Below, piece after piece: positions 8,268 through 57,200 of a DNA stretch of 64,000 nt (position 1 is the stretch's first letter; each line of letters opens with the position of its first letter). Under the pieces are notes generated by a model that saw nothing but the letters and a program-made list of their open reading frames with translations, ran no database searches and was not told where the DNA came from. This DNA is from Sphagnum magellanicum (taxonomy: Eukaryota; Streptophyta; Sphagnopsida; Sphagnales; Sphagnaceae). The stretch covers positions 12,818,041 through 12,882,040 of the forward strand of contig CM038917.1 of NCBI GenBank assembly GCA_021904315.1. The letters are read 5' to 3'. The position numbers and the translations under genes were made by a program.

Positions 8268-8624
8268 TAAAGTTATCCGTATAGTCAGGCGGTTAGGTGG
8301 CGAGAACAGTCAGTTTCGGCATAATAGGGCATCAAATGCAGAACCGGGAATGAAATTTTACAAATCTGAATAACTGGGACCCAAACTAGTTTTAGCACCT
8401 ATTTTGGTGGTAGACTGAGTTTCATCCCCTCTTTGCTTTTTCCTGAGCGCCTCCACTCCTCCAACCTGTACAACTAGGTACTGTAATTACTCTCAAACCT
8501 TGTGCATTAAACGCTGACTTTCAGCATTTCATACTGAGATTAATAAAATTTCCTTACTTTGCGGATACCACTGAAAGAGAGAGGATAGGGGGTGAAAGAG
8601 AGGGTGACTTTACGGATAACTTTA
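8268..8624. mobile_element. MITE copy 1, TIR TAAAGTTATCCGTAAAGT
   Basis: This 357-bp element is bounded by inverted ends: TAAAGTTATCCGTATAGT on the left, and on the right the reverse complement of TAAAGTTATCCGTAAAGT, with one mismatch. A second full-length copy at 46726-47058 is alignable throughout; the blocks TCAGTTTCGG, AATAGGGCATCAAATGC, ACTGGGACCCAAACTAG and GGGGGTGAAAGAGAGGGTGA occur in both. No coding capacity is visible. Both copies are flanked by TA if the TIR is read as AAGTTATCC, which would fit a TA target duplication (Tc1/mariner type), but the TA could equally belong to the TIR. It is a non-autonomous DNA transposon; the superfamily is not settled. Confidence 0.85.
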
Positions 8625-8717
8625 TTACTTAGGTTCTGCAATTTAGGAGGAGAAATAAAATTCTTTTAGTTCTAGGGGACATGCCCCTTAGGTGCACATT
8701 CTGCCTCCCAGTGAAGT

Positions 8718-15400: not shown

Positions 15401-15403
15401 TAG
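9393..15403 (+). CDS. TPR protein of kinesin-light-chain type, probably organelle-targeted (11 exons)
   Basis: Coding exons: 9393-9448, 10100-10342, 10449-10638, about 10948-11156, 11435-11708, 11890-12046, 12581-12803, 13819-13910, 14093-14228, 14356-14687, 15153-15403. Every intron is GT...AG, phases match at each junction, and the product is about 720 residues. Residues 1-100 are Ser/Arg-rich with few acids, like a plastid or mitochondrial presequence. Residues about 165-235 are acidic (ALDDDDMAEQVMREL). From about 300 to the end there are at least eight TPR units at roughly 42-residue spacing, with helix pairs such as LATTYTDLDENRRATETYQR, LATAYAAVQKYEKCEPLLRR and LASILHSMGRNEEALTLMFR, often followed by LGPDSP-type linkers as in kinesin light chains. 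TPR arrays are protein-binding scaffolds, and no catalytic domain is seen. The family suggests a plant KLC-like/TPR protein (an Arabidopsis At5g53080-type protein is possible, from memory only). The partner is unknown. Confidence 0.9.
10948..11156 (+). CDS. TPR gene exon 4: acidic linker, 5' boundary uncertain
   Basis: The 3' end is firm: GAATTGGG before GTATGA, in phase with exon 5 at 11435. The 5' end is not. Exon 3 ends in phase 0, which allows starts at 10948 or 10951 (acceptors TTTTTGAG and GAGAAG), whereas the better-looking acceptor CTGTGTCAG at 10988 is out of phase with exon 3. Either the weaker acceptor is used, or exon 3 or a small unseen exon differs. The encoded stretch is rich in Asp and Glu (DTEVDEENEG, ALDDDDMAEQ). 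Confidence 0.6.
12804..13818 (+). other. TPR gene intron 7 with internal duplication
   Basis: This is the largest intron of the gene (about 1 kb). Blocks recur in diverged form and in the same order about 0.5-0.6 kb apart: ACAGAAACTCAGATGTGG near 12990 against ACAGAAACCTAGGACACA near 13504, and AATCTCATGGATATTTTTAG near 13162 against AATCTCATAGATGTATTTAG near 13767. The intron therefore grew by an old tandem duplication. The short 92-bp exon 8 follows at 13819. Confidence 0.65.
13819..13910 (+). CDS. TPR gene exon 8 (92 bp)
   Basis: This exon has no ATG and is too short to stand out as an ORF. It is required by phase and by TPR continuity: exon 7 ends with SMLR, this exon supplies ALRIVEKAFGSWDGRVGVAT and the following CALGRTRAARG, and exon 9 continues EMSEAVALYRKGLQIMDG. 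Flanking sites are GTTGTCCAG and GTGACT. Together the pieces complete two adjacent TPR helices. Confidence 0.85.
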
Positions 15404-15834
15404 TGTCTTAAGGGTTCTGAGGAATCCAACTTGCCATAAGATTCTGAGCAACCAGTTCAGTTGACATCACGTTGCTTGTTGAGAGGATATGCAAATTGGT
15501 CTCTCAGAGCAGAGAAGCTAGTTAGTGGCTCAATGTACTCTGAGGAATCAAAGTTTTCATTTGGGTTTTGACAAACAAGTTCATCTGGCAAGTTCTGGTG
15601 TGATCATAGCTTTGATTACTACCTAGATTCTGTGTATTTTCAGACAAAAGATATTGCTGTGGTACAAAGTTACCTACTTTTGTGGTGTGATACAAAGTAT
15701 TTCTGATTTGAATTGAAACCGAAAATTGCAAGCTCAGTTGAGTTTTGCACACTAGACTCACCAAAACAGAATGTGCGGAGGTTGTATCTAGGGGTATTCA
15801 TCATACACATCCCCTAGCCCATTTTCAGTTCCTT
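15404..15834 (+). other. 3' flank / probable 3' UTR of the TPR gene
   Basis: Mixed composition like the gene itself. GTTGAGAGGATA, which occurs inside the last exon at 15348, recurs just after the stop at about 15478 with similar neighbours (AAGCTAGTTAGTGGCTCA against GAAGTTAATTAGTGTCTTAA), so part of the terminal exon is duplicated in the 3' flank. No clear AATAAA near the stop was identified. Confidence 0.45.
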
Positions 15835-22499: not shown

Positions 22500-23904
22500 G
22501 ATTTAACTTGATTAGATGTTACATTTGCAAGTGGTCAAATGGGTCACACCAATCAAGTTGATTAGTCAAAAATTACACATACCATTCACTATCTAGGGTT
22601 CTAATCAAACTATATCTTTCCATAATTCAAGATGAACAATGTGTTCAAAATGGACCACTTGAAACACTAGGACTTGTAATATAGATTCTTCTTCAATTTT
22701 TTGTCTTGTTACAACAATGATCAATGTGCAAGGTTTTCTTCTTGTTCATTTTGTTGTTGTCAGCTTTGGAGCTTGAAGCAAAATCTTCTTTTATTTTTTG
22801 TTATTTCACCTTGTTGTAGGGCAAAAGTTGTGTAAATTGTAGTAACCTATGTGTTTTCAATTGATTTGATAAACTTGTGATCATTTGAATTTCAATTGCT
22901 CCAATACATCATGCTTAGAAAAAGGATTCAACATTTTGTGTTCAATATTGATAATCCTTCAAAATGAGTCTCTTCAATGTGGTATTTTTTGATTTGGTAC
23001 TTGCAAAGTTTTCCATGGCCAAATGTGATTTAATTTGATGTTATAAATTGTTGTGGAAACTTGAGATACCAATCCTTTTGAGCACAAAAATAAGATGATC
23101 AAAATAACTCTACATGCTCTAGTTACAAATTTCATTATCATGTTTTTCATTTTTTATGTGTGGAAACCACCCATCAAAGTTTCAAACAATGAAATTGAAC
23201 AAACTGAAATAGTCTCTACCATTGCAAAGTGGTTAAATATGAATTATCACTTGGTGTTAACCTTTTGATCTTTTCTCTAAATTGTTGCATCCTTATGGTG
23301 AAATCCATGAAAATTTGAATTTCTCAAAAGATGGAGTGTGAATTGTGAGTTGTAAGGATTGCAAAGACAATGAACGCAAGCTAATCATGGAGCTAGTAGA
23401 AATAGATAATTGTGTTTTACATGATTTACATTGAAACTCAAAAATGTGGAACTACAATGAATGTTACTAAAAAGTTATACCTCACACAAGAACCTTGGGA
23501 ATGTTCATCTTTGTTTTGGTCCCACATTTGTAAATCATCAACGAGTTTAAGATTGAAACTATGTATGTTTATTACATAGCTATGGAAATCTATGTTTTTG
23601 TTTGCATAAATATTTTTTCACCTTTTTATTGTCTATGTAAAACTAATATGCCACACTATTGTATCTTGTATCATGGACTTCACATAAACTATACCAAAAC
23701 CTTTTAAAATAAAAATCTCAATTCCCTTCACAATTCTATTCCATGAAATTTTACACTCATACAACAATTTAGTTATCTCGAGTGAAGGTGTTTCCAAAAG
23801 TCACAAACACCCATTTATATACTAATCAAAAAGGAAGTTTTACACACCACATGGCTCCCCATGGCTCCATATGTGATTCCACATGCACAATAAAAGGCCA
23901 AAGA
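22500..23904. other. AT-rich intergenic DNA, no feature recognised
   Basis: No open frame of note, no repeat ends, and the composition is like the rest of the AT-rich background. Confidence 0.5.
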
Positions 23905-24211
23905 TTTTTCACATGAATAATCATGTGTGAATCAATGCACATTAATATGACAAAAAAATTTCACATGATTTTTCACATGAATTATCATGTGTGAATCAAT
24001 GCACATTAATATGGCAAAAACTTTTCACATGATTTTTCACATGAATTATCATGTGTGAGTCAACGCACATGAATATGGCAAAAACTTTTCACATGACTTT
24101 CCACATGAATTATCATGTGTGAGTTAATGCACATTAATATGGCAAAGACTTTTCACATGATTTTTCACATGAATTATCATGTGTGTGTCATGTGTGAGTC
24201 AATGCGCATAA
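23905..24211. repeat. minisatellite, 64-bp unit, about 4.8 copies
   Basis: Unit starts at 23905, 23969, 24033, 24097 and 24161 are each exactly 64 bp apart. Each unit carries TTTTTCACATGAATTATCAT then GTGTGA, ATGCACATTAATATGGCAAA and TTTTCACATGA. The core TTCACATGAATTATCATGTG is nearly palindromic, so single units can form a hairpin. Units differ by a few substitutions, and the last is cut short with a small internal repeat of GTGTG(A)GTCATGTGTG. It is not a CRISPR: repeats are contiguous without spacers and the genome is eukaryotic. Confidence 0.92.
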
Positions 24212-37520: not shown

Positions 37521-38339
37521 CATTTTGAAAACTTGAAAATTTAATTTCCCCATAATCTCAAATCATGGAAGAGTTTGCCAAACCAAAACTCTGACAAATG
37601 CATCATTTCATCATCTTTACCCTACCAAGAGCATGATCAAGTTCATCCACCACCCACACATGAAACCAAACATAACAAATATCATATGTAACATAATGCC
37701 CCTTAAAGGGAATTATGTAGGTCCAAAAAATCTTTGTGTTGAACTTTGTCTTCAAATTTAACCATTGGCTCCTCCATCAAATTTTATTCTACCTCACACA
37801 TACATAGATGCAACTTTTCAATAGGTTTTAAATAACCAATATGTAGAAATGGTATATCTTGTCCAAAAACATCAACTTGCCCAAATTGTTAGTTTGTAAA
37901 AAATGACATTTATGAAATGCAGTCAAGATTGTAACAACATCACAAACTTCCTTAGGCAAAATTTCAATATGACTATAATAAATCATTAAATTTATGTTAT
38001 TTATTAAGTTTTTTTCACATCATTGTTGTGTACTTTTCATTTTATTAGTCTATTGTTGATAAAATGCTTGTTGAAAATATATAAACATAATGAACAATGG
38101 TTTTGACTTATTAATTCCATGATTATGATGATGAAAATAATAATGGTTTGTCATTTTACCATAATTTTCATGACACAAATGTAAAAAAAAATTCCATTAA
38201 AGGAAACTTAAAATTTATATCATTTTAAAGAATAATTATGTTTATGTTGATATTGTCATAATAAAATATAATTTTAACATTTGTTGAAATAACTAAAAAA
38301 TGGCAATCGATCCAAATAACATTATAGACCAATTCTCAT
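37521..38339. other. AT-rich intergenic DNA
   Basis: No open frame or repeat boundary supported. The right part borders the minus-strand hAT relic. Confidence 0.5.
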
Positions 38340-39120
38340 TATTTTTACATAATTTGTTTTCCCCAAGAAGTTTGTGATGAATGTCCAAAAAATATGCATT
38401 GTTTTCATTTAGGTTGCCAAGATGCTAAAATTCTATTGCATTGATATAACAATGTTTGGAAACTTGTGTTCCTTTTTGCACCATCAAGATGAGGCACACT
38501 TGTAATTTTGTGCATCGACAAGATACCAATGGAATCCAACAAGCTCTTTTGACACAAGGTCCTTGCAAGTGTCTACATTTGTCACTACATTGTGAAACAA
38601 AATTTCAAAATCCACTTGTAATTAAAGATTTTCAATTTTTTTAGTCAAGTTATTTACATATCAACAACTTATATGCATTGATCAATAAAGGCAACAACAA
38701 TTCTTCATCATATTTAATAAACAAAACAACATTGTCATAACATAAATAAATGGTGACCAACTACATGTTTTTAAACCTCAAATCAGACATCAAGGCCAAC
38801 ATGTTATGACCATTTTTCCTATTAAATGCAAGCAAAAAATGGGTAGAGAAACTTCCTACTTTTAGTGTTTCATGTAGACGATGAATTTTTGGAATTAATG
38901 ATCTACAATACCTTCAAGATAATGGTGTTACAAACAATCTAAAATAAAGTTCTTCATAAGTTTATTGATAAATCAATATGATCAACTACAAGGCATCCAT
39001 AAGCAACCCATGTCCATGACTTTGGTTTAAAACATAGCCATTGACAATTGTGGATAAAATTTTCATGCCACAACTTCACAAATAGCCTAGGTTCTTGGAA
39101 AAGGTATATGCCATTGTAAT
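38340..39120 (-). pseudogene. decayed hAT-like transposase, C-terminal part
   Basis: Reading the minus strand with frameshifts gives, in order from the right: PKIHRLHETLKVGSFSTHF near 38890, MLALMSDLRFKNM near 38800, VLFIKYDEELLLPLLINAYK near 38700, WCKKEHKFPN near 38470, and a broken RILASWQ..KQCIF at about 38420. Known plant hAT C-termini run LxxMLDPRFK, then a W..H...FP segment, then A..ILxI..S..ETERIF. The order and spacing fit, but each motif is degraded and stops are frequent. The assignment is from motif memory, not from a search. Confidence 0.45.
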
Positions 39121-42100
39121 TATATAGTTTGTTGGTTCTAACACAATGCTGATTTTAAAAAGTTACGACATCTTAGAATAACAATACCCAATTTGCAATC
39201 TTATGATGAATAAAAAAATAAAATTAAGAACACCATGAACCACAACAAATGTGTGCATCTATTCCAAAACCAAAAAACATTCAAATAATAATTAAAATGG
39301 GTTTACTACATCTTCAAGTTTGTGCAAGTTTTCACATGTTTACTTACCTTACTAAATTTTTTGGGTCATGTAATACATTTGTGAATGTCACCTTGAGTAA
39401 CATTTATAAATATATCTAGGTAAGACCTTGAATCATTTTGCCATATGTAGTAACATAGTACTAACACACCTTTGAAAGTGGATGTTGAAAACACAAGCCA
39501 TCAAATGGCTTTAAAATGACTAATTTACTACATGATACAATAAGATTCAAGGCATTTGCATAAGTTTGTGAAATTGAACCCTTCATCCTTCACATAAACA
39601 AAGATCTTTTGAATCAAAGAATTTTTTTCAAAGAGTTACTATAATTTAAGAACCATAATTGCATTGTTTATGCATCCATCACCTTAAACATCCATATAGG
39701 GACATATTTTTCCTCCCAATGATTCAACACAAAACTAGCAACAAATATGGCATGTGCTCCTTTTCACGTCCAAAAATCAAACAAGTTAAGCAATTGGCCA
39801 ATGCAAATTCCAAATATGCAATCATGATTTTTTCTGCCAAGGCAAACATGACATCTTCAACAAACTTTTTCAATATGGGAACACAACTCATGCATACAAA
39901 TTATATGTCAACATTTGGTTGTGCCAAATGGACTCAATAATCATCATAGACATGAAGCCTTTAACCAAAAACTCATGGGATATTCCAAGAAACCCACCCT
40001 TATTGCATCAATTTTTTGGATTAATTTGTATTTGTGAAAAAACTAAATTTGAAGTGAGGGATACATGTACTTGTTTTTTACCAAGTTCATCATCAAGTGG
40101 AGCTCTTGGGTAATTACTTGTTTTTTCTAACAACTTTTTTTAAAACAATGTGTTTAAACTCAACATGTCCAATAGACTAATGATAAGCAATAACACTTAA
40201 TGCACAAGGCAAAGATTTTAGGACCAATGATTCCATTATGGTAAACAATACATGCCATGATTTGGTTTTAAGAAAGATTCACATGTTGATTATTTTTCAT
40301 CTTAAAAAATGTCAATGCACATGAATGAATTGTGATTGTGCAAATTTAAAGTAGTTTTGCACTTCTACAAATTTTGTAAGTGCACTTTGGCGCAAATATA
40401 TATTTCATCAACATTAATAGCTTCTAGATTTCTAAACGACTCCCCACATTCATGGGCAAATTGCACATTGTTAATAATAGAACTACTATAGTATCTTACA
40501 AAAGTTGGAGAATTTTCCTTGTTATAATTAATATCATGTGAACATTCATGATAAGACATGAAAAACAACCCATCACTTGTAGTAAAAAGCCAATAGTTGA
40601 AAAAAATAAAAACATTGCTTCAACTTTAAATAAACACACCCCTAGGTTTGTCCAATGTTATTAAAGGTTTAAAATCCTTATAAATTTTCATTTGTGCAAT
40701 GAAATGCAAACCTAAAATGTATCCCTTAGCTTCCTTAAAGAAAGATAATGTTAAAGCTTCAAGATCGGACTATGACAAGTTTTTCCAAAAAGATCCTTGA
40801 AAGAATATGCTTGTAAGTTGTATAGAAGTTTAAAAAAAGATTCATGAATAATATTCTTGGAAGTTTTTAGAAGATGTGATTTTTTTCAAAAAATTATTGA
40901 TAGAAGCTTTTAGAAGACATGGTTGGCAAAAATTTCTAGAAGGTTGTTTAATATAAATCTATTAAAGTATTTTTGATGAAATAACATTAAAGATAATACA
41001 AGAAGAGGTCCAAAGGGCACCACCCCTTCATCTTGCCAACACAAGTTATGGTTTTTGTATTTTAAAGTCATATCATGCCTAGCTTGCATCATGCCTTGTT
41101 TAAACAATCAAATTGTTGAATTCTTGTACATTCTCAAGTTCTTTACTTCTTAAATATCTTAGTTTTTTCAAGTTGTGATTTTTTCTTATCCTTGATAAAA
41201 ATAGATTCACCATAGTTCAAACTTGGGAAGAAACATAATTTTCTTCTTTATAACATATTTTGTAAACAATGTTGAAAATTATATCAAAGTGACATAAATT
41301 CTTGGGGTTCCCAATTCAAAATTTTGAGATTGTCAGATTATGGTCTCATTACATTCTAAGTTCGTAAATCTTTCATATGAATTTTGATTCAAAAGTATTA
41401 ACAAAAAAAGTTGTATATTTGAAGAGAGTTTTCCAACAACACATCACACTCCACAATTGAAGGTGGTTTAACCCTTCTATTCTAGACATTTTAATTGTCA
41501 AAAATTAAATGACTAGTTTCATTCTTGATCATTCAATTAGCCATAATTTGTGTTTTAGATCTCCAAATTTGGAATGTGACCCCACTTTAAATATCTATAT
41601 AAAAAACTCAAAGGTTAAATAAAGGTCTAATTTGAACAAGGCTTGATCCCTCAAACTTTGGTCCAAACTTGTGGGACATTTTGGTGTGTCAAACCCCATA
41701 AGTGAGAATGTATTTGGGAGTTGTGAAACACTTCCTTTTCACAAGGGGAATGTGTTTCAATGCCTTATCTACTTTAGTTCATGCCCAAACCATTTTAAAA
41801 AAAACTTGTCCCAACCTTAGTTATAAGTTCAAAGCTAGGGTTGACATGAACTTATAAAGGAGATAGAGGTTTGAGGTTTAGAGTTGATAACTTTATGGAA
41901 AGGAACAAAACATAGAACACATGATATGTTACATTTTTGAAGATCTTTCCCCACATGCATTGTTTCATGTAAGCACACTTTAAAATAGAAGCTTAAATGA
42001 TGAGGTGCAAAAGCAAGGCTAATAATCAAAGTTTGAAATCCAAAATCTGTAATTCATAACTTAGTGAAAGACATTGCAATATATAGGTCATAACAAATGC

Positions 42101-43724
42101 CAAAAAAAATAATTTCAACTTTTGTTATGTTGCAAATGTGTTTTTGAATAAAAACAAATTGGATAATAAAAGTGAACCTTGTATTTGTGAATAAATAGTC
42201 AAAGATCAAGGCTTGATGAAAGGTGATACGTGCTAATTCACATCCTTGTCTCATTAGACATGTGACAAGTTTGAAAAAAAAACCACGTTGAGAGTTATCA
42301 AGATGAACAACACCAACTTGCATGTAAACATAAATGCAAATAAGAAGAAATAAGAGATGTGAAAACTAAAGACCACATACCTTTTTTTACTTGAATGACA
42401 AATGCATATTCCATGTTTCCTTGAAAAGTTTGATTTGTCTCCATTAGCTAGTAGTGTGCATTCATCTTCATACCTGTTTTCTATGGCACATTGAATAGAA
42501 ACTTATAAAGTTTAGAATGAACATTGGAAAGGAGAAAAGTGGCACTACCAAAAAAATGAATGAAAGTTTAGGGTCATCTACAAATACAAGTTCACAAACC
42601 ACAGACTCAATATTAAAAGTTACAAAACACAAAACCTAAATCATAACCTTAATTGAAAACTTTGCCAACTATTTGAACATGTTATGAATTCAGCTTTTTT
42701 GTAGATACACCCTACCATTATCTCCCCTTGGGTTAGATCTAGTAATGGGTATTTGAATTTCTAAAAGTAGTACATATGATGTGAGGGTGCGTGTTAAATT
42801 CCTAAAAAGGCTTGGTGCAAAATGGGGTGAAATTTTTGAAAACACACCCCCCAACTATCATATATGTGTATACTTAATACAATATGCAACAAACATCTAG
42901 TTGTCAAAGAGCTCACTTTATCTTTGTTGATTTTGACAGTGATGCTTTTAATGTCACATGTTCATCTTTGCAATGCCAATTGCACAATTAATTGTTTCTC
43001 CCCCACTCTCCAATGTGCCATAGTTTTGCAAATATTGTACACATTTCAATTCTCCGTACTTTTTGCTTATTTATATCCATCATATAAATGCACTATAACT
43101 GATAAACATTTACCCCTACCTTAACCCATACATGGATTAATAAGTTTGCAAAGCATATGCATAGTATACCCTTGTTTTTAGCAAAATTGTAAAGTTTTAT
43201 ATACTACTATTGGCCAAGTATATAGTTTGTTGGTTTGTATGTGGCATGGCAAAGATAATGGTATTAAGGGTCAAAACCGGTTTGGTATTTGAAATATTTA
43301 GGTCAATACGTGGACTAGGTGGGTATTGTAAGTCAAAAAGCAATATGATATGCCAAAATTACTAATGATTATTTCTTACATTTAAAATTATGGTTATTTG
43401 TTGTAATTGAACTTGAAGCTAAATATTATCAATATGCTTATGAGAAAGGGCTTGAAACAAAACACCTATATTTCATTACATTTTTGAACTCATAGGGTGT
43501 TTGAACCTTTGGTCCAGGACAATTGGTTTAGCAAGGGTGGCCTTTGTGGCTGGACAAGTAGGCAATTACCCTTGATTTAGAATCCAAGTCTTGTCATTGG
43601 TAAATAAGTTTAAGCAAATAGGCTAAGAGAAATTGTTGTTTGGAGTTTTTTCAAGGCCATTGGTGGCATATGTGTGATAATTTCAATGGAGAAATTTTTA
43701 ATGTTGAAAAACAACCAAGGCTTA
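39121..43724. other. AT-rich intergenic DNA, no gene recognised
   Basis: Several 60-90 codon frames on both strands without recognisable motifs. A small hairpin (TGAAACACTTCC ... GGAATGTGTTTCA) lies at 41724-41759. The stretch next to 39120 could be the N-terminal part of the minus-strand transposase relic, but nothing legible remains. Confidence 0.45.
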
Positions 43725-44000
43725 AAGCATCTCCAGGGGCACATTGCACAACATGTTTTGGATGAAGATTAGTAAAAACTTGCCCCCACCCAAGGCCGAG
43801 TAAAATGGCTTTGGCTTAGCATTTTTGCTCAATATGCTGAGGCTCGCAAAAGCCCCTACATAGTCTCATACCTACTCTTGATTGGTCAAATATATAAATT
43901 GGTCCATGTCATTTGCTATTAATAGGTTTTGACATTTTACAATCCCAATTTCATATTCATGGGTGGGGCTTGGGATCCACGATGATTCTTTTGTCGATTG
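43725..44000. mobile_element. MITE of the AGAGCATCTCC family, copy 2, interrupted on the right
   Basis: Begins AAAGCATCTCCAGG and shares CTTGATTGGTC, TTTGCTATTAATAG and GGGTGGGGCTTGG with the copy at 34824-35211, and GGATGAAGA.TAG with the copy at 46034. Its right terminus is not seen; the LINE fragment begins where it should continue, so the LINE probably inserted into or next to it. Confidence 0.6.
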
Positions 44001-44012
44001 CCTGCTTGCTAG

Positions 44013-44543
44013 CTAGCAGAAGTAGATGAACAACTGTCGACATACAATTTGTGCATCGATAACGATCTGTTGCCACCATGTGCTCGCCTCAAGCAGTTGG
44101 CTGAAAGGCAATACATTATACACCATCAAGTGGCTACAGCTGACTCCAACCGAGTGAGAGCCTATCTGGGGTTGAATAGCTCAGCACAGTATGGGTACAA
44201 AGAATACCTCTCCAGGGTAGACAATGCACAACTTAGGAGAAGTTTGGCACGTTTTCGTTGTGGGAATCACAAGCTGCAAATTGAGCTAGGAAGGCAAGTC
44301 AAGCCAGTGAAGGTGTCGGTGCAACAACGTTACTGCAAATTGTGCAACTTGGGTGTGGTTGAGGATGAGAACCACTTCTTGTTGGTTTGCCCTGCTTATC
44401 AAAGTGTTCGAGAGAGGTTTAGAAGTTCATTGCCACTAACTGCCATCACACCTTTGGCTGAATTGTTGAGCTGTCAGCAGCAAAACATCCTTGCTAGATT
44501 TTTAGTACAATGTCAGACATTTAGATCTAAATTGCTTTATTAG
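44013..44543 (+). pseudogene. 5'-truncated LINE ORF2, C-terminal zinc-binding region
   Basis: An open frame of about 177 codons runs from after a stop at 44010 to TAG at 44541. There is no native start; the reading enters from a missing upstream part. Near the end it carries CKLCNLGVVEDENHFLLVCP, a C-x2-C-x9-H-x4-C motif, preceded by RFRCGNHKLQIELGR and followed by a Y..VRERF segment. This arrangement is typical of the extreme C-terminus of non-LTR retrotransposon polyproteins, after the reverse transcriptase. The absence of internal stops and the higher GC than its surroundings indicate a fairly recent insertion. Endonuclease and reverse transcriptase domains are missing, the usual result of incomplete target-primed reverse transcription. 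Confidence 0.8.
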
Positions 44544-44630
44544 ACTTAACGTCAATTGGGTTCTGGCCCGGGTGCTGTTTGGCCCATTTAATGACGCTAA
44601 ATTGTAAGTAAGTAAGTAAGTAAGTAAGTA
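44544..44630 (+). mobile_element. LINE 3' UTR and (GTAA)n tail
   Basis: A short 60-nt non-coding stretch containing GGCCCGGG and GGCCCATTTAATGACGC is followed by GTAA repeated six times plus GTA (44604-44630). A simple-repeat tail instead of poly(A) is a feature of several LINE clades. GATGATTC occurs at 43981-43988, before the LINE, and at 44642-44649, after the tail. It is a possible target duplication, but is not exactly adjacent to the tail. Confidence 0.75.
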
Positions 44631-46033
44631 CCCAAAGTGGTGATGATTCACAAGAAGATTAAGCCAAATTTGGCTACACACTAATTATGAAAGCAAAATA
44701 TTTAAAACCATCTTTCTATAAAATTGGCAACGTACTTGAACCATATATAAAAATTTGGCAAAATTACTTGAATGTCGGTCAAATTCTAGCTATTGAAAAT
44801 CTCAAAAAAAAACACATGATTTTAGCAATTTTAATTTTTAATATATATAGCTGTTTGGGGGGAAAAAAAAAACTACTTGGGAAACAGTAAATAAATAATC
44901 TTGGATCTGAGAAATACTAGTTGTAGGGTCAAATTCTGAGTATGGGTGGATGCTCTCAATTATTCGCATATCCATACTTTTGTGACTATGGGGGCAAATC
45001 CACCACATTGGCTCTTTTCTCCATTTTCTTCTCCCGAAAGTGTTAAAGTTCAAACCCAGAAGAGAAACATAAGATAAGATATTAGAATTATTTAATTTTT
45101 GTATTCCCTATCTTTTTTCTAGAACAGCTGCCCTTACAGAAACAACAAAAAAGAGGGAATCTTTTCTTTTCTATTGTTAGTTCGGAGGACAAGTGGTAGA
45201 TTTCAATATGGAGTTTGTGTCTCTGGACATTTTAGGGTTCATACTCCCTCATGTATCCATGATCCATGTGTGAATCATGGGAAAAGATGAGAGCCAAGTG
45301 AAATTTTGGAAAGCACAAACATTGTATCTTCACCCTGGTCCCTCTGCCCTTTCTGTATGGTGTCTTTCTTTCCAATGGATTTTTTCATTAAAAAATAAAA
45401 TAAAGAAATAAAAATAAATTTGTAGCTAGGTGATGGGGTGTGTAAAATTGGAGAAAAATTTACCCGTATACAAGGGTTGTTGAAAAAGCAAATGGAAATG
45501 TCAGGGGATGTCAGGAAGTGTTGAGGATATGTTCTGGGACATTGGGCAATGTCAAAAAAAATTTAGCAGATGTTGGGTGGAGCCAAGGAAACTTCAAGGG
45601 GTGTTGAGTAGCATCAAGACAACTCCAATGGGAAGCCAAGAAAAATTTGGGAAATGCCAGGAAAACATTGTGAAGATGTCAGGCAACTCTAGGAAAACAA
45701 TGGAGAATGTTGGGCAATTACCAAAAAATCAAGAATTAGTGTCGGGAAGACACCATGTTGCATCGAAAAAATGTCAAAATACAATAGGATGAGCTAAGTC
45801 TGAACCAAAAAATAACTTTTGGTGAAAATGTAACAAAAAAAAACCTATGCTTCTAGGGACACTTGGAGGGTTTAGGGTTTGCCAATCACCCATTTTGTTA
45901 GGTGGGAACATGTTCTACCAAGGCCTGTTCCAAAGCCATGGCTTTCCCCACCACGGAATTACATCTCAAATGTGTTCTCCATGGTGAATTCATCCAAGCA
46001 ATTTAGAGGTCATATTGAGACGGGGAGGAACTT
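44631..46033. other. intergenic DNA with a degenerate GTCAGGnA / TGTTGGGCA-like repeat
   Basis: At about 45490-45780 the + strand repeats variants of ATGTCAGG, GGGCAATGTC, AAGTGTTGAGG and AACATTGTGAAGATGTCAGG at 20-40 bp intervals. This gives a 94-codon frame that reflects the repeat rather than a known protein. No gene is recognised. Confidence 0.45.
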
Positions 46034-46361
46034 AGAGCATCCTCCCATGCACACTCCATGGTGGAATGTTTTGGATGAAGAATAGCAAAGCTTATGCCAG
46101 TTTGGGGTATTAAAATGGCTTTGAGCCAATGTTTGTACACATGATGCTATGCCAATAAAAAAAACCATTACACAACCTAGCAACTACTCTTGATTGACGA
46201 GATAAACGATTAATGTGGGTGGTGGGTTGTTTTAGCCACCTTCCACCCTTTACATTCACAATATTCATGTTTACAATTGGGGACAAGTAAGCAAGCCATC
46301 TTGCATGTGAGAAATTCTCTTGGAGGCCCAAATGCCATGTATGTGTGTGTACAGATGCTCT
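46034..46361. mobile_element. MITE of the AGAGCATCTCC family, copy 3
   Basis: Left end AGAGCATCCTCC and right end ACAGATGCTCT form an imperfect inverted repeat around 328 bp. Internal matches with the other copies include TTTTGGATGAAGA, ATGGCTTTG, ACTCTTGATTG and GGGTGGTGGG. It sits only about 1.4 kb from the LINE-disrupted copy 2. Confidence 0.75.
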
Positions 46362-46725
46362 AAGAAAAAGATCCAGAAGATGTGAAATCCTAAACCAAAT
46401 GAACTAAAGATGTAAACTGAGTTGGGTTACTAGTAGTCATCAAATTGTACATTTGGATGGCAATAACTCCCTTTTTAGATGGAGAGTCTTTCAGTGACCT
46501 CAAGAGCCTCTGAAACTTGAGGCCTCTGACCCTCCACATCCAGTACCACTTTTGCCTCCTATTAGGCCTGAAACTGTGGTGAGACCCGGGTGAACCGCCT
46601 TGTTTTCTCTGTTCTGGTCATGTACATGGCCCAGCTACACAACTTTCTTTCATCATCCTATCTTGAATTGGTTGGTTGTATTGGATCCTTAACCCTATGG
46701 GAGAATCTATTTTGTTTTGAGACCG
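46362..46725. other. intergenic DNA, no feature recognised
   Basis: Higher GC than the background (for example AGACCCGGGTGAACCGCC near 46583) and no open frame of note. Possibly an older insertion. Confidence 0.4.
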
Positions 46726-47058
46726 TAAAGTTATCCGTAAAGTAGGGCAATTAGGGGGCGAGAATGGTCAGTTTCGGTATAATAGGGCATCAAATGCTTA
46801 ACTGGGAATGAAATTTTACAAAACAAAATAACTGGGACCCAAACTAGTTTTTCCACCAATTTTGGTGGTATACTGAGTTTCATTCCCTTTTCCCTGCTGC
46901 TACCTGTACAACTACTATAATTACTCTCGAATCTTGTACATTATTTGCTGAGTTTCAGCATTTCATACTGGAAATTTAATAATATTTCATTACTTTGTGG
47001 ATACCACTCAAAGTGAGGACAGGGGGTGAAAGAGAGGGTGACTTTACGGATAACTTTA
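46726..47058. mobile_element. MITE copy 2, TIR TAAAGTTATCCGTAAAGT
   Basis: A perfect 18-bp terminal inverted repeat bounds 333 bp that align with 8268-8624 over the whole length, with scattered substitutions and small indels (the CTGAGCGCCTCCACTCCTCC block of copy 1 is missing). It is non-coding. The two copies lie 38 kb apart, showing that the family is dispersed. Confidence 0.88.
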
Positions 47059-47989
47059 GTATGTCAATTGGACCAGTGGCCTCATGTGACAAATGCTTCC
47101 ATCATCAGGTTGATCACAAAAATGGTTCATCAACTCAAAATAGGTTAAACCCCTATGATCACAATGTGGTCTCTTTAGAAGGCCTTACATGTACCCGAGC
47201 ACTCAACTTTGGTTTAGAATTTTCTATGAAAACAACATATGGGAATTTTATATTGAAAAATTCTTGGTGATGTTATTCGCTTTTCCTTTCAAAATTGGAT
47301 TGAAGTTTAGTTCTGAAGCATTGAAAATATAAACTCCAAAGTGGGTAGGTTTTTTCCCTCCAGACTTCATATGAGAACCCAGGCGACAAGGTAATCCCCA
47401 AACTGGTTCAAACTTTTCATCAAGATGATTCTGTATTCATTACAGGATTTGTGCTGAAGCAACCAAATATGATCACCCAAAATTGGCTGCATAAAGGCCC
47501 CTTCACTCCACGTAGCGACCTCTCATTGGTTGCATGGAAATTCCATTTCTAAAATTGGCTGCCGTTATTTTTGGCCTGCACTTATAGCCCTTCCTAAGAA
47601 CACCCTACCTATTGTATTGGGCAGATTCCAAAGAGGCTTTTGCAAAATGAGCTTCAATGTTCTCAAATTTGTTCTCTAGTAGAAAGCTAAAGACTTTTCA
47701 ATGTGAAAACTTGATTTTTGCAACTTGAGTACATAAGCATCATGAATTTGGGGCATTGGGGAGAAGAATAATGTTATATTAAAGGCCTTCAAGGAATCTT
47801 ACATGACTTCTTCACTAGTGTTGGACCCCTATCCCCTATTGAACATACCTGAGTGGTCCTGGTATTGGGATTTCCTTTTTTTTCTTTTCTTTTCATACCT
47901 GGCAGGTACTGGTATTGGGTACTCTTTTAAAACTTTCATATGTCTGGTACTGGCATTAGGTCCAAGGCTAATTCTTTCCTTGTATTTTT
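47059..47989. other. intergenic DNA with GGTACTGGTATTGGG-like degenerate repeats at the right end
   Basis: No gene is recognised. At about 47855-48020 variants of GGTATTGGG / GGTACTGG recur every 30-50 bp. This wording continues into the left border of the tandem duplication described below. Confidence 0.45.
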
Positions 47990-48055
47990 CAGGTATAAAT
48001 TTGATATTGGTACTGGTATAAAGTCAGTATTGTCTCAGATCATAGTGGGTTAATT

Positions 48056-48176
48056 CTCTAGTAGAAAAAACCCATTTTGCGACTTGTCCAATGCAATTAA
48101 AAGTGTTGTTTGCAACTACACAAATGACACTTTTAGTCTCATTGGACAAGTTGCAAAATGAATTTTTTTACTAGTG
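48056..48176. mobile_element. CACTA-like foldback MITE
   Basis: The left arm CTCTAGTAGAAAAAACCC... and the right arm ...TTTTTTTACTAGTG are inverted repeats about 50 bp long with roughly nine mismatches, around a 20-bp centre; the element is 121 bp. The outer right end reads CACTAGTAAAAAAA on the minus strand, the form of CACTA-superfamily ends. Both sides are flanked by ATT (48053-48055, 48177-48179), the 3-bp duplication expected for CACTA. Unit B of the surrounding duplication lacks it. Confidence 0.8.
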
Positions 48177-48569
48177 ATTCTTCAATATATCGGTGGTACC
48201 ATATATCCAGGAAATGACACTTTTAGTCTCATTGAACAAGTTGCAAAATGAATCTTTTTACTAATGGTTCTTCAATATATCAATGGTACCATATATCCAA
48301 GAAATGACACTTTTAGTCTCATTGGACAAGTTGCAAAATGAATTTTTTTATTAGTGATTCTTCAATATATCAGTGGTACCATTTATCCAGGAAATGACAC
48401 TTTTAGTCTCATTGGACAAGTTGCAAAATGAATTTTTTTACTAGTGGTTGTTCAATATATCCGTGGTACCATATATCCAGGAAATGACACTTTTAGTTCA
48501 TTGGACAAGTTGCAAAATGAATTTTTTCACTAGTGGTTCTTCAATATATTAGTGGTTCCATATATCCAA
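48121..48569. repeat. 90-bp satellite, 5 units, seeded by a MITE arm
   Basis: Unit starts at 48121, 48211, 48301, 48391 and 48481, spaced exactly 90 bp; the last is one base shorter. Each unit holds the right arm of the MITE (AAATGACACTTTTAGTCTCA ... ACTAGTG, about 56 bp) plus about 34 bp of its original flank (ATTCTTCAATATATC, GGTGGTACCATATATCCAG). The array thus arose by tandem amplification across the MITE/flank border. Units differ by few substitutions, so amplification is younger than the segmental duplication. Confidence 0.95.
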
Positions 48570-49734
48570 GTTGCACTCTATACACCAGTACAACACTAGT
48601 CAACACCTTCAAAGTTTTATAAAATCTTACATATTTTTATGAAAATTATTGCAAACTTGATGATGCATATTTTTGCTTGTATAATATTTAGTAAGATGTT
48701 ATATACTCCACCCCCCTTTCACTAGCATGGTTAAATTCAATTGCACTGGATGCATTTGATTTTGCACGTGTTTTCTCTTATAGAACAAGCAACTATGCCA
48801 TGAGAAAATTTGTCTTAATTGTAACACAAAAAAGCATGATCTCAAAAAAAATCCAAACTAGCACTTAAAGCAAGATCTCCAAACACTCATTCCTTACTTT
48901 ATAGTTCTTCAATCAAGTTCATGTAAGTAATTCAAAAGCTTATCCATTCACTCTACATCCATTCTCCACACCATATACTCAACTAGGAGTTTTCACAATG
49001 TCTCTATCTCAAGTTTGGGATCGAGTAACAAAATATTTTATTCTACATGTTTTGTTACATGCACTTGGATCTAAACCTAAAAGGTTGTGGCAACATGAAC
49101 TAATCACCATTGCTAGCTACAAATTGTCATTGGGGTTAAATAAAGGCACTAATCATTACTAATAAAATCATGTGTGTGCTACATCTAACACTTGCAAAGT
49201 TCAAGGGGTAGTTTTCTAATGTTTCATAACCCAAATATGGACTTGTGACTAACTCCCAAAAATGATGAAGATATATCCTTCCAAGCACAATAAAAATGAA
49301 GTTGAATGCAAATTTGAAACATGGCATGAACCAAGGAGAGTGAAATGCATTCTCACACCAAGTGGGGCGTCTATGGGAGTCAAAGTACAAAATTTCAAGA
49401 ACCCAAGTTACATTCCAAATTCATATATTTGCATGTTCAAAAACATGTTTCTTTAATAGTTATGAACTAGTGTGGGCTTGTTTTTGCACAAGGAACCAAA
49501 AGGTTTGACCAATCTAATTATATTAATTGAAAACAAGTTGAATAACCCTTGAAGTTCAAGCATTTCACAACCATATGATATTGGAGTTTTGATATGCCCA
49601 TTGGGGTACCTTATATTTTGAAATACACTATGAGGAATCACGTTCATGGCAACTAGATTTCCCTATAACTAAAGTTGCAAAACAATTAATATACAACTAT
49701 GTTACAATTGTCCCATGGAAATATTTCATGGTAC

Positions 49735-51960
49735 ATCATAGGTATAAACTTGATATTGGTATTAGTGTAAAGCTAATATTGCCTAATCATATTAGATTGG
49801 TGGGTTCTTCAATATATATCCAAGTTGCACATTATACACCAATACAACACTAGTCAACACCTTCAAAGTTTAATAAAATCTTACATATTTTGTTGAAAAT
49901 TAAATTGTAATTTTGACCATTCATAATTGGGTATGTGAAATATATAGTTGGACATTATACACCTTCCTCTTCTTTGTTCTATGCAATTGCATTGGATACT
50001 TTTGCTTTTGCACATGTTTTTCACATAGAGAACACAACTAGGCCATGAAAGTCTATTTTTAAATTGTAATAAAAACAAACTAGATTTCAAAAAATCAAAC
50101 TAGCATGTTAAACAAGATCTTCAAACACTAACACTAACACTTTACTAAATTGAACTCATTCCTTACATTATAGTTCTTTGATTAAATTCATTAAAAAAAT
50201 TCAAAGGCTTATCCATTCACTTTACATTCATTTTGGATACCCTATACCCGCTTAGAAGAAGTTATCATAGTGCCTATATTTCAAGTTTTAGATATAACTA
50301 ATAATCATTTTTTTTCACATGATTTGTTACATGCATTTGGATTTAAACCTAGAAGTTTGTGGCAACATGAACTAATCGCCAATGCTAACTGAAAATTGTC
50401 ATTGGGGTTAAACAAAAGCACTAATCATTACCACTAGCATACTTCCCAACATCATGTTCAAAATGTTGTTAAATATGAATTTAAACATATTTATAACCAA
50501 ACATTATATAGAACCATGTTTGCATTAATGTTTTGTAATTCAAATATTGACTTGTGACCAACTCCTAGAAATGATAAAGTTATGTCCATCCAAAAACAAT
50601 AAGAATGAAGTTGAATGCAAATTTGAAACACAACCTGAACCAAGGAAAATGAAATGCATTCTCACACTAAGTGAGGGGTTTGTGAAAGTCAAAGGACAAA
50701 TTGTCAAGATCCCAAGATGCATTTTCACTTTAGGGATTGAAATTATTAAAGAATGTTTGATTTTCTGAAATGAGATTTGAAGTTTAGGATATATTTAAAC
50801 TAAGTGATTTTGACATCAATTGATACCTATTTCAAATGTGAATTGTAACATAATGAACTTACACTGGCAAAGATTAACTTGAAAGTTATGAAGGTTTTTA
50901 GAAGGGTTGTGACAAAAGTTGCCAAAATGCCTTTTGACCATTTAAAATTGGACATAATTTGGTTGAGGAACTTGATATGGCATTGGAAACTTCTTCTTAA
51001 GAGCTATGACATAAAATATTTGCATGCTCAAAAAAAGGTTTCTTAACAATTATGAACCAAGGTTAACTAGTTATTATTGTTTTTTCAAAATTGATTGAAC
51101 ATATTATTTTTCATTTTTTATTTTTTGCACCACATAGCTATCAATAAAATTAAAATTAAAATTGAAGACCTAGCTATTATCAATTTCTTCATCAAATTAA
51201 TACCCATAGTTATTAATTAATGTGGTTACTTTTTTTGGTGTTAACTACTTGTTATGCATAAGGATATTCAGTGATCAAACATTTACCTTAGAAATCGCCC
51301 AATATACCATTTAAGTAGTTTTTTTTTTGTGGTTTTATTAACCAAAAGTGCATGCCATGCTCAATGTGTGCTAAATCAAAGATAAAAAAAACTCTTGGAT
51401 TATTGTTTTGTGAAATTATTAAAAATCACTAAATCGACCTCATGATGATCACAAATTACATATATATTTAGCCTCCATGTTTCTTCATTGGCATGGTCAA
51501 TTGACAAAAATATGAAAATGCATTTTTAAACTTATATTATAAAATTATTTCATTGGATTAATTTCCTTTGTGGTTAACCAAAGTGTTGAACTTGAGTTTT
51601 ATCAAAAAATCTATGTTTTTTCTTTGGCAAAATTCAAAAATTGTTACCCTCAAAGTATTTGAGAGACCATGTGTTTGAGTATTTCATTCATAGTAGTTGG
51701 TAGGAACAAAAATCACATAGGGTGGTGGTACTAGCACAAGGAACGAAAGGGCTTGGCTGATCTAACCATATTAATTGAAAACAAGTTGAATAAACATTGA
51801 AGTTTAATCATTTCACAACCATTTAATATTGGATTTTTGATATGCCCATTGGTCCAAAATTTTTAAGGTGTATCACCTAAGGGCCATGATGAAGTAGAAA
51901 CAATTTCAAATTCAATCTTTAATTCTACCTTATATTTTGAAGTATGATAGCTTAGACACC
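49735..51960. repeat. ancient tandem segmental duplication, unit B
   Basis: Partner of unit A (see 47990-49640). It retains the un-inserted site at about 49795-49830 (GGTGGGTTCTTCAATATATA then TCCAAGTTGCAC). Relative to A it holds two extra stretches, about 50740-51000 and 51060-51715, which are either insertions in B or deletions in A. Both units keep a short open frame around KNEVECKFET (49262-49456 and 50547-50768). Confidence 0.85.
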
Positions 51961-52291
51961 ATATATCAAGAAATATCAATATCATTCACTATAATTATGT
52001 TGATGGTGAAAAGAAATAATAAAAAATTCAAAAGAGGAGTACAAAAGGGTGATGATATCACAACATTTTTTAATACACATTAAAGAATTTGGATGTGTTC
52101 CAAATTTGGACTAAATGCAAAGTGGTAGATTATTAAAATTTTGGGGTAAATAGGGATTGATAACCTACTTGGATGAAAATTGCAAACATTCAAAAAGTTA
52201 ATAAACTATGACAACTCAGTATTGGTCTTATTGGTTTTGTACATTTTACCTACCAAGTAAATAGGTTCTCCAACTAATTTTCAAAATAATA
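51961..52291. other. AT-rich intergenic DNA
   Basis: Nothing beyond background seen. Confidence 0.5.
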
Positions 52292-52345
52292 ATAACTAGC
52301 ATCTAGTTTATTGATAACCTTATTGATAAACTAGATGCTAGTTAT
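52292..52345. repeat. perfect 20-bp hairpin
   Basis: ATAACTAGCATCTAGTTTAT at 52292-52311 and its exact reverse complement at 52326-52345 enclose a 14-bp loop. TTATTGATAA occurs three times in and next to the structure. It may be a template-switch product or an excision relic; there is no evidence of transcription. Confidence 0.9.
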
Positions 52346-54119
52346 TGATAACCATGTCTTTTTGATAATTAACCAACATTTTTATGAACCACCAATTTTG
52401 GAGTGAGATTTTGAAAATTTCAAAAAAAATGCCATTGTGTAATGTCCACAATGAATTACAGAAATTAAAAATCATGCACAGAGGGGGGAAAACAAGTCAT
52501 TTACTTTGAGAAAAAACATGAAGTACAAAAGGGGGTTTTGAAGTTTTAATTGATGGAACCAACAAACACCCCAAAGATGGTGAGCTCTAATATTAATTCT
52601 TTTCATAATGGTATAGGTGTGATGAAGTTCATGTAAATTTATGATGAATTTGTGTCTCAATTTTTGTTCCAATTACATTCAATAGCCTCTTCTTTTGTTT
52701 TGTATACTTAAGGTGAAGGGAAGTTGTTTGAAAATGTAGTATCATTAATTATGGGGGCTAAAACAAATGTAGCTACTACTTGTCTTTTTCATCTTTCAGT
52801 GTCAAAAATTGTACCAATGTTGCAAGTTTATAATGTTTTTATATAACAATGTTTTAAATATATTATGAAAACATGTGGAACAATTTGGAGTGAATATAAT
52901 GAATATAAAATATTCAAAAGCACTATAACTATTTTTTTGTTGTTCTTGTTCATTTTTTGAATGACTTGAATGTATTAAAAACTACACAATCACAAATTAT
53001 AAAAATTTCCACTCCTTTACATATGAATATATAATGTCATCTTTTTCATGAATATTTTTTGTGACATTAAAAATGATTTTTAATCCATATCCTTTTGTAA
53101 CCCATTCTAATCTCTCACATTATCTAGAAATTAGGACCTTTAGTTATTGCAATGTCTTTTAAGTTCAATTAGTAAAAAAATGTGTTAAAAAGTGATTCAT
53201 ATTTATCATCTATATTGTTATAGAAAGCTAATACCAAACAATGAAAACCAAGTGACCATTTTTTTTAATCTTTGGGGGACATTTAAACTTGTGTTTCATC
53301 ATGCATCAAAGTCTATACACATTTTAAAATGGACTTGTAACTCTTGGAATATTAAATCAAATGTTTTCTAGCAATACTCTATCATAGGTTGTATGATTAA
53401 AATGAACATGAAAATTCATATCAAGAATGTGATTGCAAATGGGAGTAGACATTTACTTACTTTGTAAAGCCTTGGTTGTGGAAATTCATTAAGTCTTTTC
53501 AATGTGAAAACTTTGAATTTAATGGAATTTTTCATTCAAAGTATTCAAAAAATGTATTACGAATGGAAGGCAAAGGTAGTTCTTGCAAAAAATTGAATTT
53601 TGCTAAACATATTTATTTTGAAGGTGTTGATAACACCAAAAATTGTGCAAAAATGAATTCCTATTATGCCACTTGTGGTTCACCTTAGTGTGCAACTACT
53701 CAAGTGGGCAAGTTGTGGTTCCTAATAATGTGTTTTCACCTTTATGAAAACTTCTATTTGTCCTAGTCATCCCCAAGCCCCTTATATTAATTGTAGAAAG
53801 TTATAATAAAAGTGCACCTTTACACTATGAAAAAAGGGGTGTTTTATTATTATTATGCAACTATATTATAAATGCACCCATGATGTCATGCTAACGTCAT
53901 TAATTGTCATCCATCTAGTAAAATTTGACACTTAACACTATGAAGATTTTTGGACATAGTTTTTTTTTTTTTTCAAAATATTGATCTTTAGCATCCATTA
54001 TGATTGTTAATGATGGTCTTAAATTGTGACATGTGACATAATAAAAAAATTGCCACATGAAATATTAATTGTATTTTTGAAAAAATTAATATAAATAAAT
54101 GTTTATTTTAGTAGCTAAG
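52346..54119. other. AT-rich intergenic DNA, no feature recognised
   Basis: Short frames up to 70 codons without motifs, and homopolymer runs of T. No transposon ends supported. Confidence 0.5.
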
Positions 54120-54260
54120 TGGGTTGTACATAACCATAGGTAGGTAGGTTGGTAGGTCATAAAACCTACATACTTAGGCATTTACCTAGGAGCTACCTAC
54201 CTACATAGGTAAATTAAAAAGTAGCATTTGATTACTTACCTAAATAGTTAAGTAGATAGG
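54120..54260. repeat. GGTA/TACC tetranucleotide-rich foldback
   Basis: ATAGGTAGGTAGGTTGGTAG is followed within about 60 bp by CTACCTACCTACATAGGT, the approximate reverse complement, with ACCTAGG in between. Similar wording recurs at 61330-61480. Confidence 0.65.
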
Positions 54261-57200
54261 AAAACATAAGATTAAGTAAATTAAAGAATAAGCATGCAAT
54301 TTTATTTTATTTATTTTATGTTTTGCCTTCAGGGTTAAGCTTATTTTAAGTTCATCCCATAATGGCACATGTATTTTAATGTGAGAATATATATATATAT
54401 ATATAGTTTGTAACATGGGATTCAAAAATAAAACATACGAATTAAATCTTTCAATTGTTCCTTAGTTGCAAATTGAGTTGCAATTATAAAAAGGTTTTCC
54501 CATATGTTTAGTGTTTGTTTTTCATTATGAAAGTTATACAATTAAATAAATGGATATATGATAATTAAATATGTGAATTAATTATTTTCATTAATTAATG
54601 AACTAATTATGTGAAACCAACTTAGGTAATGTAAAATTAATTATATGAATTCCACTTATTTATTCATATTAGCAGTCAATTATGTAGTACAATCAATAAA
54701 TTCATAATAAATAAGTGTATTAAACATAGTTAATATTTAATAGTCAAATTATTGAAACATTATTTATAAAACATTACACGTGAACATGTATTGTTATTAA
54801 GTTATAAATAGTTGTTTTATAATTATAACATAGTTGAGTAATAATATTTTAGTAGTGGTGCATTAATGACCAGACTAATTGTATCAATGGGAATCATAAT
54901 TGAAAACTAATTGCAAATGTCTCACATAATGGGTGGTGGAAATGTGGACATGTGGCATGATCACATGTATGTACATTGTGCATTAAAGTTGCAACATAGT
55001 TGTTGTTTTAGTGGCCCATTTACAATAATTTAAAAATAGTTGCCACATGCAATTATAATGTAACTCTTGAAAATGTATGTACGATGTGTATAAATTACCG
55101 TATAGAAGACCCATTTTCAACTCATTTTCAACTATAATATAATTAGCTGATTTTTTGATGTGACAATTTATTTATTAATACTTCATATATCTAAGGGGAT
55201 AATTGCACAATAGTTGTATATGAGTTATTTTTTGAGCTTTAGTTGTAGGGTAATTTGGCTTAAGATTTAGGGCTTTTTGGGTAGTCACACATTTCCATAT
55301 AATGTTCACGTTTAAATTCTCTGATTTTAAACCCTAAAACCCTAAAACCTTTAGACATTTGTTTCAATACCAAAATAAATAAACAATTCTTTATTAAGTG
55401 TGTATAAACCAAGAGACATGAAAAAAAATTGTTGCATTTGAAATGCATAATGTAAATAACCAATAATAAAAATTCCAATACAATTGTTGCAAATATGAGG
55501 AATATCATGCATTAGGAATACCAATTTGGGAGGTGGTTTTGCTTGATGTCATGGCAAAGTTTGAACCCCTTAAAAAATAAAATTGGTAAGGCACCACTTG
55601 CACAATTTAACCTTGCACCAAAGGCCCATGTAAAGATATTTAATGCCTACATTTCAATCTAAGAGGGTCATCAATGGGGCCACAATTGTTCAAAAATTAA
55701 GCTCTTGCAATGAATGATTGCCTTATGACGACCCATGTCATAATAACTTGGGCAACACCTAGCTTGCTATAATTTAACTAAAGTAACAAATAGAGGAAAA
55801 TAATGGATATACTAATCATCACTTATGACAAGATTAATGCCAAAGGTAATGTTGGGCAAAATATTAAAAATGATGATGAAATCAAACTTAAAAGCCATTT
55901 GTCTAAAAACAAGGGCTTCTTTGTTAAGAAATGTTGGAAAAAAGTCTTTTCAAGGATTGAGTAGGATTACAACTACATGAAGGGTGAAAACATAGTCAAA
56001 AGAGCCATTAAAGTGAGTGTACACTTTTTAAAATTGCATTTTTGTATGTTTGAAAAATCACAAGTGAGCATAATAATTTGAATTTTCATAATTCTTTTGG
56101 AATATTTTTCATTAATTACAAAGCTTACATGCTCAAAGCTTGAGACAAATCAAAAATGTTTTTGCATGTTCAAAGCATTCAAACCTTGAGAGTGGATAGT
56201 CCTTGTTTTTTTCCGATGCCTTTTTTTTCTACCAAATGTGCACCATTTCTTTTGAAAATTGGAAAGGATTTTAACATTGATGACTAGAAGGACAAAAGGA
56301 CTTGATTTGATGAAAATTATTATTATAATCAATTTGAGCACATTTGGTTCAAAAGTGCTTTGACCCTGAAAATTATGGATGTTGAAAATGTGCTTTTGAC
56401 AAAAGTTCATGTTTATGTGATAAAGGGCATGAATGTATAATGTACATGATATAAAATCAATTTGTAATCAAAATAAATTTTTATTTAAAATGCAATATTA
56501 AAGCAAATATTTGAAACACAAATTTTAAAGTTATAAATCAACATAGCAATGACATGTGTCATGTGCAGTCCTTGGAAAAGGACTTTTACCTTGGTGCCCT
56601 TGGTTCCCTTGACTATGTTTTCACCCTAAATGAAAATAAAACTTTGAAAATTTCCTACTTAAATTTATTGAAATAAAAAAAAATTTACAATATTGATTGA
56701 ATTATCTAGTGGTCTTGCAAAGTATGATTGAACCTTCATTAGTTTTTAATTTGGTGACATATTATATGTAATTAAAAATAAATGGAATTACAAATGGTAA
56801 TAAAAAGTACTAGACTTGATCTAACCCCATAATCCAAAAAAATTATTATAATATAGTTTGTTAATCTAAATATCAATTTTGAAACCAAATATGATTGATA
56901 ATAATACATTTTTTTTGTAAATTTTGCATAAAGCCTTACATTACAATCAAATATACAACTTTGCTTTCAACCATGATCACAAATTGTGAACTATCTTAAT
57001 TATTAAGTACACTCCAAAATCGTTTAAACTTGAAATCCAATACAAATTTTTAAAAATATTTTTGAAACATGCTTCAACACATGCGGCCTTTCAAATTGTG
57101 AAATATATGAAAGTTCACAATAAATTTGAAAACATTTTGTGAAGGCTTTAGTAATAAAAAAACATGTCCACATTTTAAAGCTCTAAGAAAACATAATTCA

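Follow-up and report, generated by a model that had tools for sequence, protein, structure and literature searches.

The analysed window, a 64-kb stretch with 33% G+C, lies on contig C11 of a genome that was searched over 438,994,042 bp in 31 contigs. Self-comparison of the window revealed two paralogous units, A (47970–49718) and B (49719–51858), both with approximate limits, and a foldback element with a short tandem array is present in unit A and absent from unit B. The element (48056–48176, 121 bp) has arms that are paired almost throughout; 48065–48112 and 48121–48168 are 83% complementary, and the single-strand fold of −37.7 kcal/mol (z = −10.5) was equalled by none of 200 shuffles. The left arm (48056–48112), delimited by arm alignment and fold, is single-copy and lies outside the array, and an apex of 8 nt is predicted for the hairpin at 48113–48120, as counted from the dot-bracket notation of the fold. 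Both the left end, CTCTAGTAGAAAAAA, and the right end, TTTTTTTACTAGTG, are of CACTA form, the left one having decayed to CTCTA here and to TTGTA in the second copy of the locus, A', described below. The arm complementarity and the fold thus bear out the first-pass annotation, which had recognised a 121-bp foldback element with CACTA-form ends, and together with the 3-bp target-site duplications of the family they identify it as a foldback MITE. A second MITE candidate at 47674–47820 (CTCTAGTAG ... CTTCACTAGTG) was left unproven: with up to 3 mismatches allowed, the window contains 53 matches to the end motif where 37.6 are expected, 53 were reached in 2 of 100 shuffles, and the array itself contributes part of the excess.

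The tandem-repeat scan of the window placed the array at 48122–48568, with a period of 90, 5.0 copies and 92% matches. As a result of unit alignment, it was divided into five units spanning 48122–48570, each composed of 55 bp of the right arm and 35 bp of host flank. Unit U1 (48122–48211) begins 2 nt past the predicted hairpin apex and comprises the element's own right arm (48122–48176) and the host flank at 48177–48211; it is followed by U2 (48212–48301), U3 (48302–48391) and U4 (48392–48481), of 90 bp each, and by U5 (48482–48570), which has 89 bp and borders on the distal host flank. The first unit therefore includes the right arm of the element itself, and the array holds four extra units, five in all. 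The annotation had placed five 90-bp units after the element, each made of the right arm and 34 bp of flank; the array, its period and the arm-plus-flank makeup hold, but unit 1 lies within the element, and the flank measures 35 bp.

A genome search with a two-unit query, in which all 15 first-look candidates were scored, located the arm-plus-flank unit only in the window and at C14:16080590–16080918, the other matches being confined to the arm or reaching at most 14 bp beyond its end. Thus, within the genome search, the unit occurs at two paralogous places only, and no older genome-wide satellite of the same unit was found. The C14 copy belongs to a larger block: the stretch 37659–54431 of the window was matched, in inverted orientation, within 20 kb fetched from C14, where it carries A' (the element with three units) and B' (empty). 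This block extends over about 17 kb, at about 16.075–16.089 Mb, in ten collinear pieces, seven of which are 91–96% identical to the window, while the remaining three show 77.5, 85.9 and 89.1% identity; the K2P distances between the blocks are 0.058 to the left in A, 0.037 to the right in A, and 0.053 in B. In A', the same element has the same left edge (GTGGGTTAATT) and is accompanied by units V1–V3 of 90, 89 and 89 bp, for which the tandem-repeat scan gave a period of 89 and 3.0 copies. Furthermore, the junction CCA(A/G)G|AAATGAC is common to the arrays on C11 and C14, so that at least two units were already in place when the block was copied, whether to C14 or from it. The insertion and the first duplication are accordingly older than the block copying, unless the same junction arose twice.

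We then compared the occupied sites with the empty ones. The empty site in B (49800–49824) reads GTGGGTT^CTTCAATATAT...ATCCAAG, and both B and B' read GTGGGTTCTTC. In B', 32 letters are aligned to the 35-bp unit flank, leaving a 3-bp gap and, by our reading, a single mismatch to the unit consensus; B lacks a further 11 bp that B' keeps. Since the empty B' retains most of this stretch, the 35-bp flank of the unit is host DNA, as had been claimed earlier. On the same grounds we rejected the alternative that 14–16 bp of the unit flank originated by short tandem duplication of the element end, for which a shuffle test had given equally good results in 1 of 5000 shuffles for U5 and 356 of 5000 for U1. 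The claim that unit B keeps an empty site is likewise upheld, with the added detail that B has lost 11 bp, and a 90-bp array was looked for in unit B and not found. With B and B' both empty, the element and array in A', and the unit nowhere else in the genome search, the proposed order of A/B duplication, MITE insertion into A and amplification of arm plus flank is supported.

The A/B divergence was considered as a means of dating the insertion and was dropped, because the identity is 93% over the 89 bp to the right of the array (48560–48648 versus 49814–49902) and 72.6% over the whole aligned stretch. Local conversion or constraint is possible in this patch, part of which also recurs on C15 (L013), and given possible conversion the divergence between A and B cannot date the insertion.

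The target site itself is less regular. In A and A', host GTGGGTT is followed by AATT (48052–48055 in the window) and then by the left end of the element, and this AATT is absent from B and B'. Directly after the arm, at column 56 of the unit, ATT is found only in U1 and U3; GTT occupies this place in U2, U4, U5 and all three units on C14, as it does at the corresponding position of the empty sites B and B'. The element is thus flanked by ATT on the left (after GTTA), and on the right by GTT in six of the eight units of both arrays and by ATT in two. The ATT that the annotation reported on both sides accordingly does not form a clean target-site duplication. These letters would most simply be read as a GTT target with 4 bp of filler on its left side, though this reading is unproven.

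CACTA-type elements have termini beginning with CACTA and generate 3-bp target-site duplications. A genome search in which 40 of 58 candidates were scored gave 69 matches, and most of these covered only the element. Both ends were recognisable as CACTAGTAGAAAAA (up to 4 mismatches in 14) in 39 of 57 loci, 36 of them distinct. Identical 3-mers flank 22 of these 36 distinct copies, against a shuffled mean of 2.5 and a largest value of 10 in 5000 shuffles, while identical flanking 4-mers were seen in 2 of 36 and 5-mers in none of 36. The MITE family is real and CACTA-like. It shares with CACTA (En/Spm-like) MITEs the CACTAGTAGAAAAA ends, the 3-bp target-site duplications and the foldback structure, and the focal copy differs from them in that its own duplication is not clean. 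The family is also large: two different queries yielded 153 and 472 candidates at first look. At L019, L021, L024, L035, L038 and other loci, the match to the element covers only about 60 bp, ends near TTTGCAACTA and gives way to different sequence, suggesting shorter or longer subfamilies. Exact-pattern scans with the MITE core found no match in collections of viral contigs and genome contigs, as expected for a plant element.

To describe the age of the array, we counted pairwise differences per 90 columns, with gaps included, and averaged them from an eight-unit matrix. The mean was 6.7 within C11 (10 pairs), 6.7 within C14 (3 pairs) and 7.5 between the two (15 pairs), so the units do not show the closeness within loci, relative to that between loci, of a homogenised satellite. 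The average unit divergence of about 7% exceeds the 4–6% of the DNA around both arrays. Furthermore, U1 shows 4 differences from V1, against 7 from U2 and 8 from U5, and the unit nearest to U5 is V3 (7). Such a pattern would be expected if proximal and distal units had already diverged before the split. On the other hand, U1, U3 and U4 differ by only 3–5, and part of the C11 array may therefore be younger. The eight-unit tree has no supported fork and so does not settle the descent among the units; losses and conversion could mimic separate expansion. An apparently shared 1-bp deletion in U5, V2 and V3, all of 89 bp, was dropped as a marker, since U5 may lack another base than V2 and V3, and a single common loss is no more parsimonious than independent ones. 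The case for two units before the block duplication therefore relies on the common junction and the unit distances.

The first-pass annotation had presented the array as a satellite caught being born. Satellite DNA forms long arrays or occupies many loci, and here five and three units were found at two paralogous places. Nor does birth describe an array whose units are not homogenised within loci and whose first duplication is older than the copying of the surrounding block, now about 4–6% diverged. Instead, with head-to-tail units of tens of base pairs (period 90 with 5.0 copies, period 89 with 3.0 copies), both arrays answer the description of a minisatellite, or small tandem repeat. The focal array is a MITE-edge minisatellite, of a kind already known; it looks like an old, tiny and ordinary repeat, not a nascent satellite. 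It has no evident function, and we regard it as a neutral minisatellite that lies at the edge of a transposon.

For the locus as a whole, the best explanation, and in our judgement a probable one, is MITE insertion after the A/B duplication, then tandem duplication through break repair, and later a change in unit number. A CACTA-type foldback MITE would have inserted into unit A after the A/B tandem duplication, an order supported by the two empty B copies, and a 90-bp segment reaching from the hairpin apex to 35 bp outside the element would later have been duplicated in tandem. At the duplication junction, as read from the letters, host CCAAG or CCAGG is joined to element AAATGAC without microhomology. 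Because the breakpoints share no base, end joining or fill-in of paired nicks would be the simplest route of break repair, and template switching would fit the junction as well. With two units present, unequal exchange or slippage may have altered the unit number, and after the block copying one locus would have reached five units and the other three. This account does not explain the AATT at the left of the focal element. Alternatively, unit B may once have had the element and lost it, by excision or by a deletion between GTGGGTT and AGTGGTT, as B lacks the AATT that stands before the element in A, and this near-repeat could guide such a deletion. We regard such a loss as improbable: B' has the same GTGGGTTCTTC junction and most of the flank, so that the loss must have been clean and must have preceded the block duplication. 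On C15 (L013), a distant third copy of the patch next to the array also seems uninterrupted by eye, although this is weak support, as the alignment covers 54 bp at 81% identity and starts just to the right of the site. An array that came first, as a host repeat, in which the left arm would be a unit fragment copied in inverted orientation and no MITE had inserted at all, would suit the decayed left end and the flanks that form no clean target-site duplication. Such an origin is nevertheless highly improbable, for the inverted similarity ends at a CACTA-form end, both ends recur in the 36 distinct other copies, 22 of them with the 3-bp duplication, only one of 82 surveyed copies has a duplication of arm plus flank, and the unit is found nowhere else in the genome search and in neither B nor B'. 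Chance or an assembly artefact can hardly be entertained: short tandem repeats are generally hard to assemble, but the eight units differ pairwise by 3–10 of 90 columns and stand in different versions at two paralogous loci.

The annotation had also suggested that the long inverted arms promote slippage or break repair, and in its strongest form this would make the locus a nascent satellite driven by the hairpin, with arm plus flank amplified repeatedly through replication stalling at the arms or cleavage at their apex. The start of the unit 2 nt from the predicted apex favours this reading, but by a rough estimate about 1 in 10 random starts would be equally near the loop, so the position is merely suggestive. 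We surveyed the edges of other family members, covering 82 distinct copies (87 fetched, 5 repeats removed) and 164 edges, with 18 and 10 places from the two family queries left out; where a MITE end was unrecognisable, the limit of the match served as the edge, and some edges are therefore not true element ends. Indeed, one independent case was found, at L073:1601–1746 (C3 near 1906138–1906348), where the last 38 bp or so of the MITE and about 35 bp of flank are duplicated once (period 73, 2.0 copies, 91%). Under a stricter criterion, which called for a repeat reaching the point with at least 36 bp and at least 88% identity, 1 of the 164 edges qualified, compared with 7 of 2376 points in the background (2 of 44 loci). 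Background points were taken from the 44 longer loci alone and edges from all 82 copies, and points 40 bp apart are not independent. Adding the focal case, which had been selected in advance, gave an odds ratio of 4.1, with a Fisher P of 0.11. When the criterion was loosened, direct repeats appeared at 4 of the 164 edges and at 84 of 1584 points in the background (25 loci). No significant excess of tandem duplication at MITE edges was therefore detected among the 82 copies by either criterion, and the proposed role of the inverted arms is not shown.

The recurrence of the same kind of duplication in the second case, and the odds ratio of 4.1 with the focal case added, speak for a hairpin, but the duplicated piece at L073 begins well within the arm, about 38 bp away from the element end and not at the apex. 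Together with the age of the focal array and the lack of homogenisation, this makes the hairpin-driven satellite unlikely. The annotation had proposed a search for MITE copies without arrays; among the 82 surveyed, L073 alone has a duplication of arm plus flank. Three further edges with direct repeats did not pass the stricter criterion: L028 and L087 were taken as ends of neighbouring elements, and L043 as an 18-bp match. L069 was rejected as a third array, as its MITE adjoins a 79/158-bp repeat without the element's end (L069:1501–2016). That MITE edges recurrently start tandem duplications of part of the arm and about 35 bp of flank, as in the focal case and L073, with abortive nicking by a transposase or cleavage of the hairpin as a conceivable cause, is an improbable proposition. 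If it were true, the MITE family would seed many small tandem repeats, few of which could ever become satellites.

Short plant tandem duplications reportedly arise from patch-mediated break repair and are not tied to transposon ends in particular (Vaughn and Bennetzen 2014); the focal array resembles them as a local tandem duplication, and its junction is consistent with such repair. A review of MITE-derived satellites lists Xstir of Xenopus, D1100 of rye, and HindIII and BIV160 of bivalves (PMC9659126), all of which resemble the focal locus in having a tandem unit that contains MITE sequence. Many such satellites, and models that include MITE/array composites, appear in this and two other papers (PMC9659126, PMC12628747, PMC6947457), Xstir being alike also as a composite of a MITE and an array (PMC12628747). 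The focal case differs in the 35 bp of host flank carried by each unit, in an array that lies largely outside the element, and in its three to five units at one ancestral place. In the Tetris element of Drosophila virilis (PMC4079207), inverted-repeat sequence of a foldback transposon has likewise turned tandem (TIR-220), and the copy number varies between 3 and 4, which the authors attribute tentatively to unequal crossing-over; the small difference in copy number is a further likeness to the focal locus. However, the TIR-220 repeats lie inside the element and form satellite-like arrays of kilobase size, whereas the focal unit extends across the outer boundary of the element, and the searches revealed no large array. 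The focal array thus differs from the known cases by the host flank in each unit and by staying tiny. Searches of the open-access literature found no account of this locus or of the MITE family. By itself the locus shows no new mechanism, and its value is as a clean example of a tandem repeat starting at a transposon edge, complete with empty sites, a tag of host flank on each unit, and paralogous arrays that differ in unit count. It also advises caution, since a small array has outlasted a later duplication, now about 4–6% diverged, without becoming a satellite.

Finally, other features of the window were recorded. Rfam and tRNA scans of the 64-kb window found none, and Pfam matched one of three frames tested, to TPR families. 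Exons resembling a TPR (TPR_12-type) protein gene lie at 11000–15420, and their first part matches C15:6.52 Mb at 87%, perhaps as a genome-duplication partner. An intron stretch in this gene region (14734–15087) has about 30 other places at 70–94% and represents an interspersed repeat of about 350 bp. Another tandem array lies at 23903–24185, with a period of 64, 4.4 copies and 93% matches. A dispersed repeat occupies 8268–8627 and 46726–47061, with copies 81% identical within the window, and pieces of a high-copy interspersed repeat, with many places at about 73–82% identity, are found at 53850–55260.
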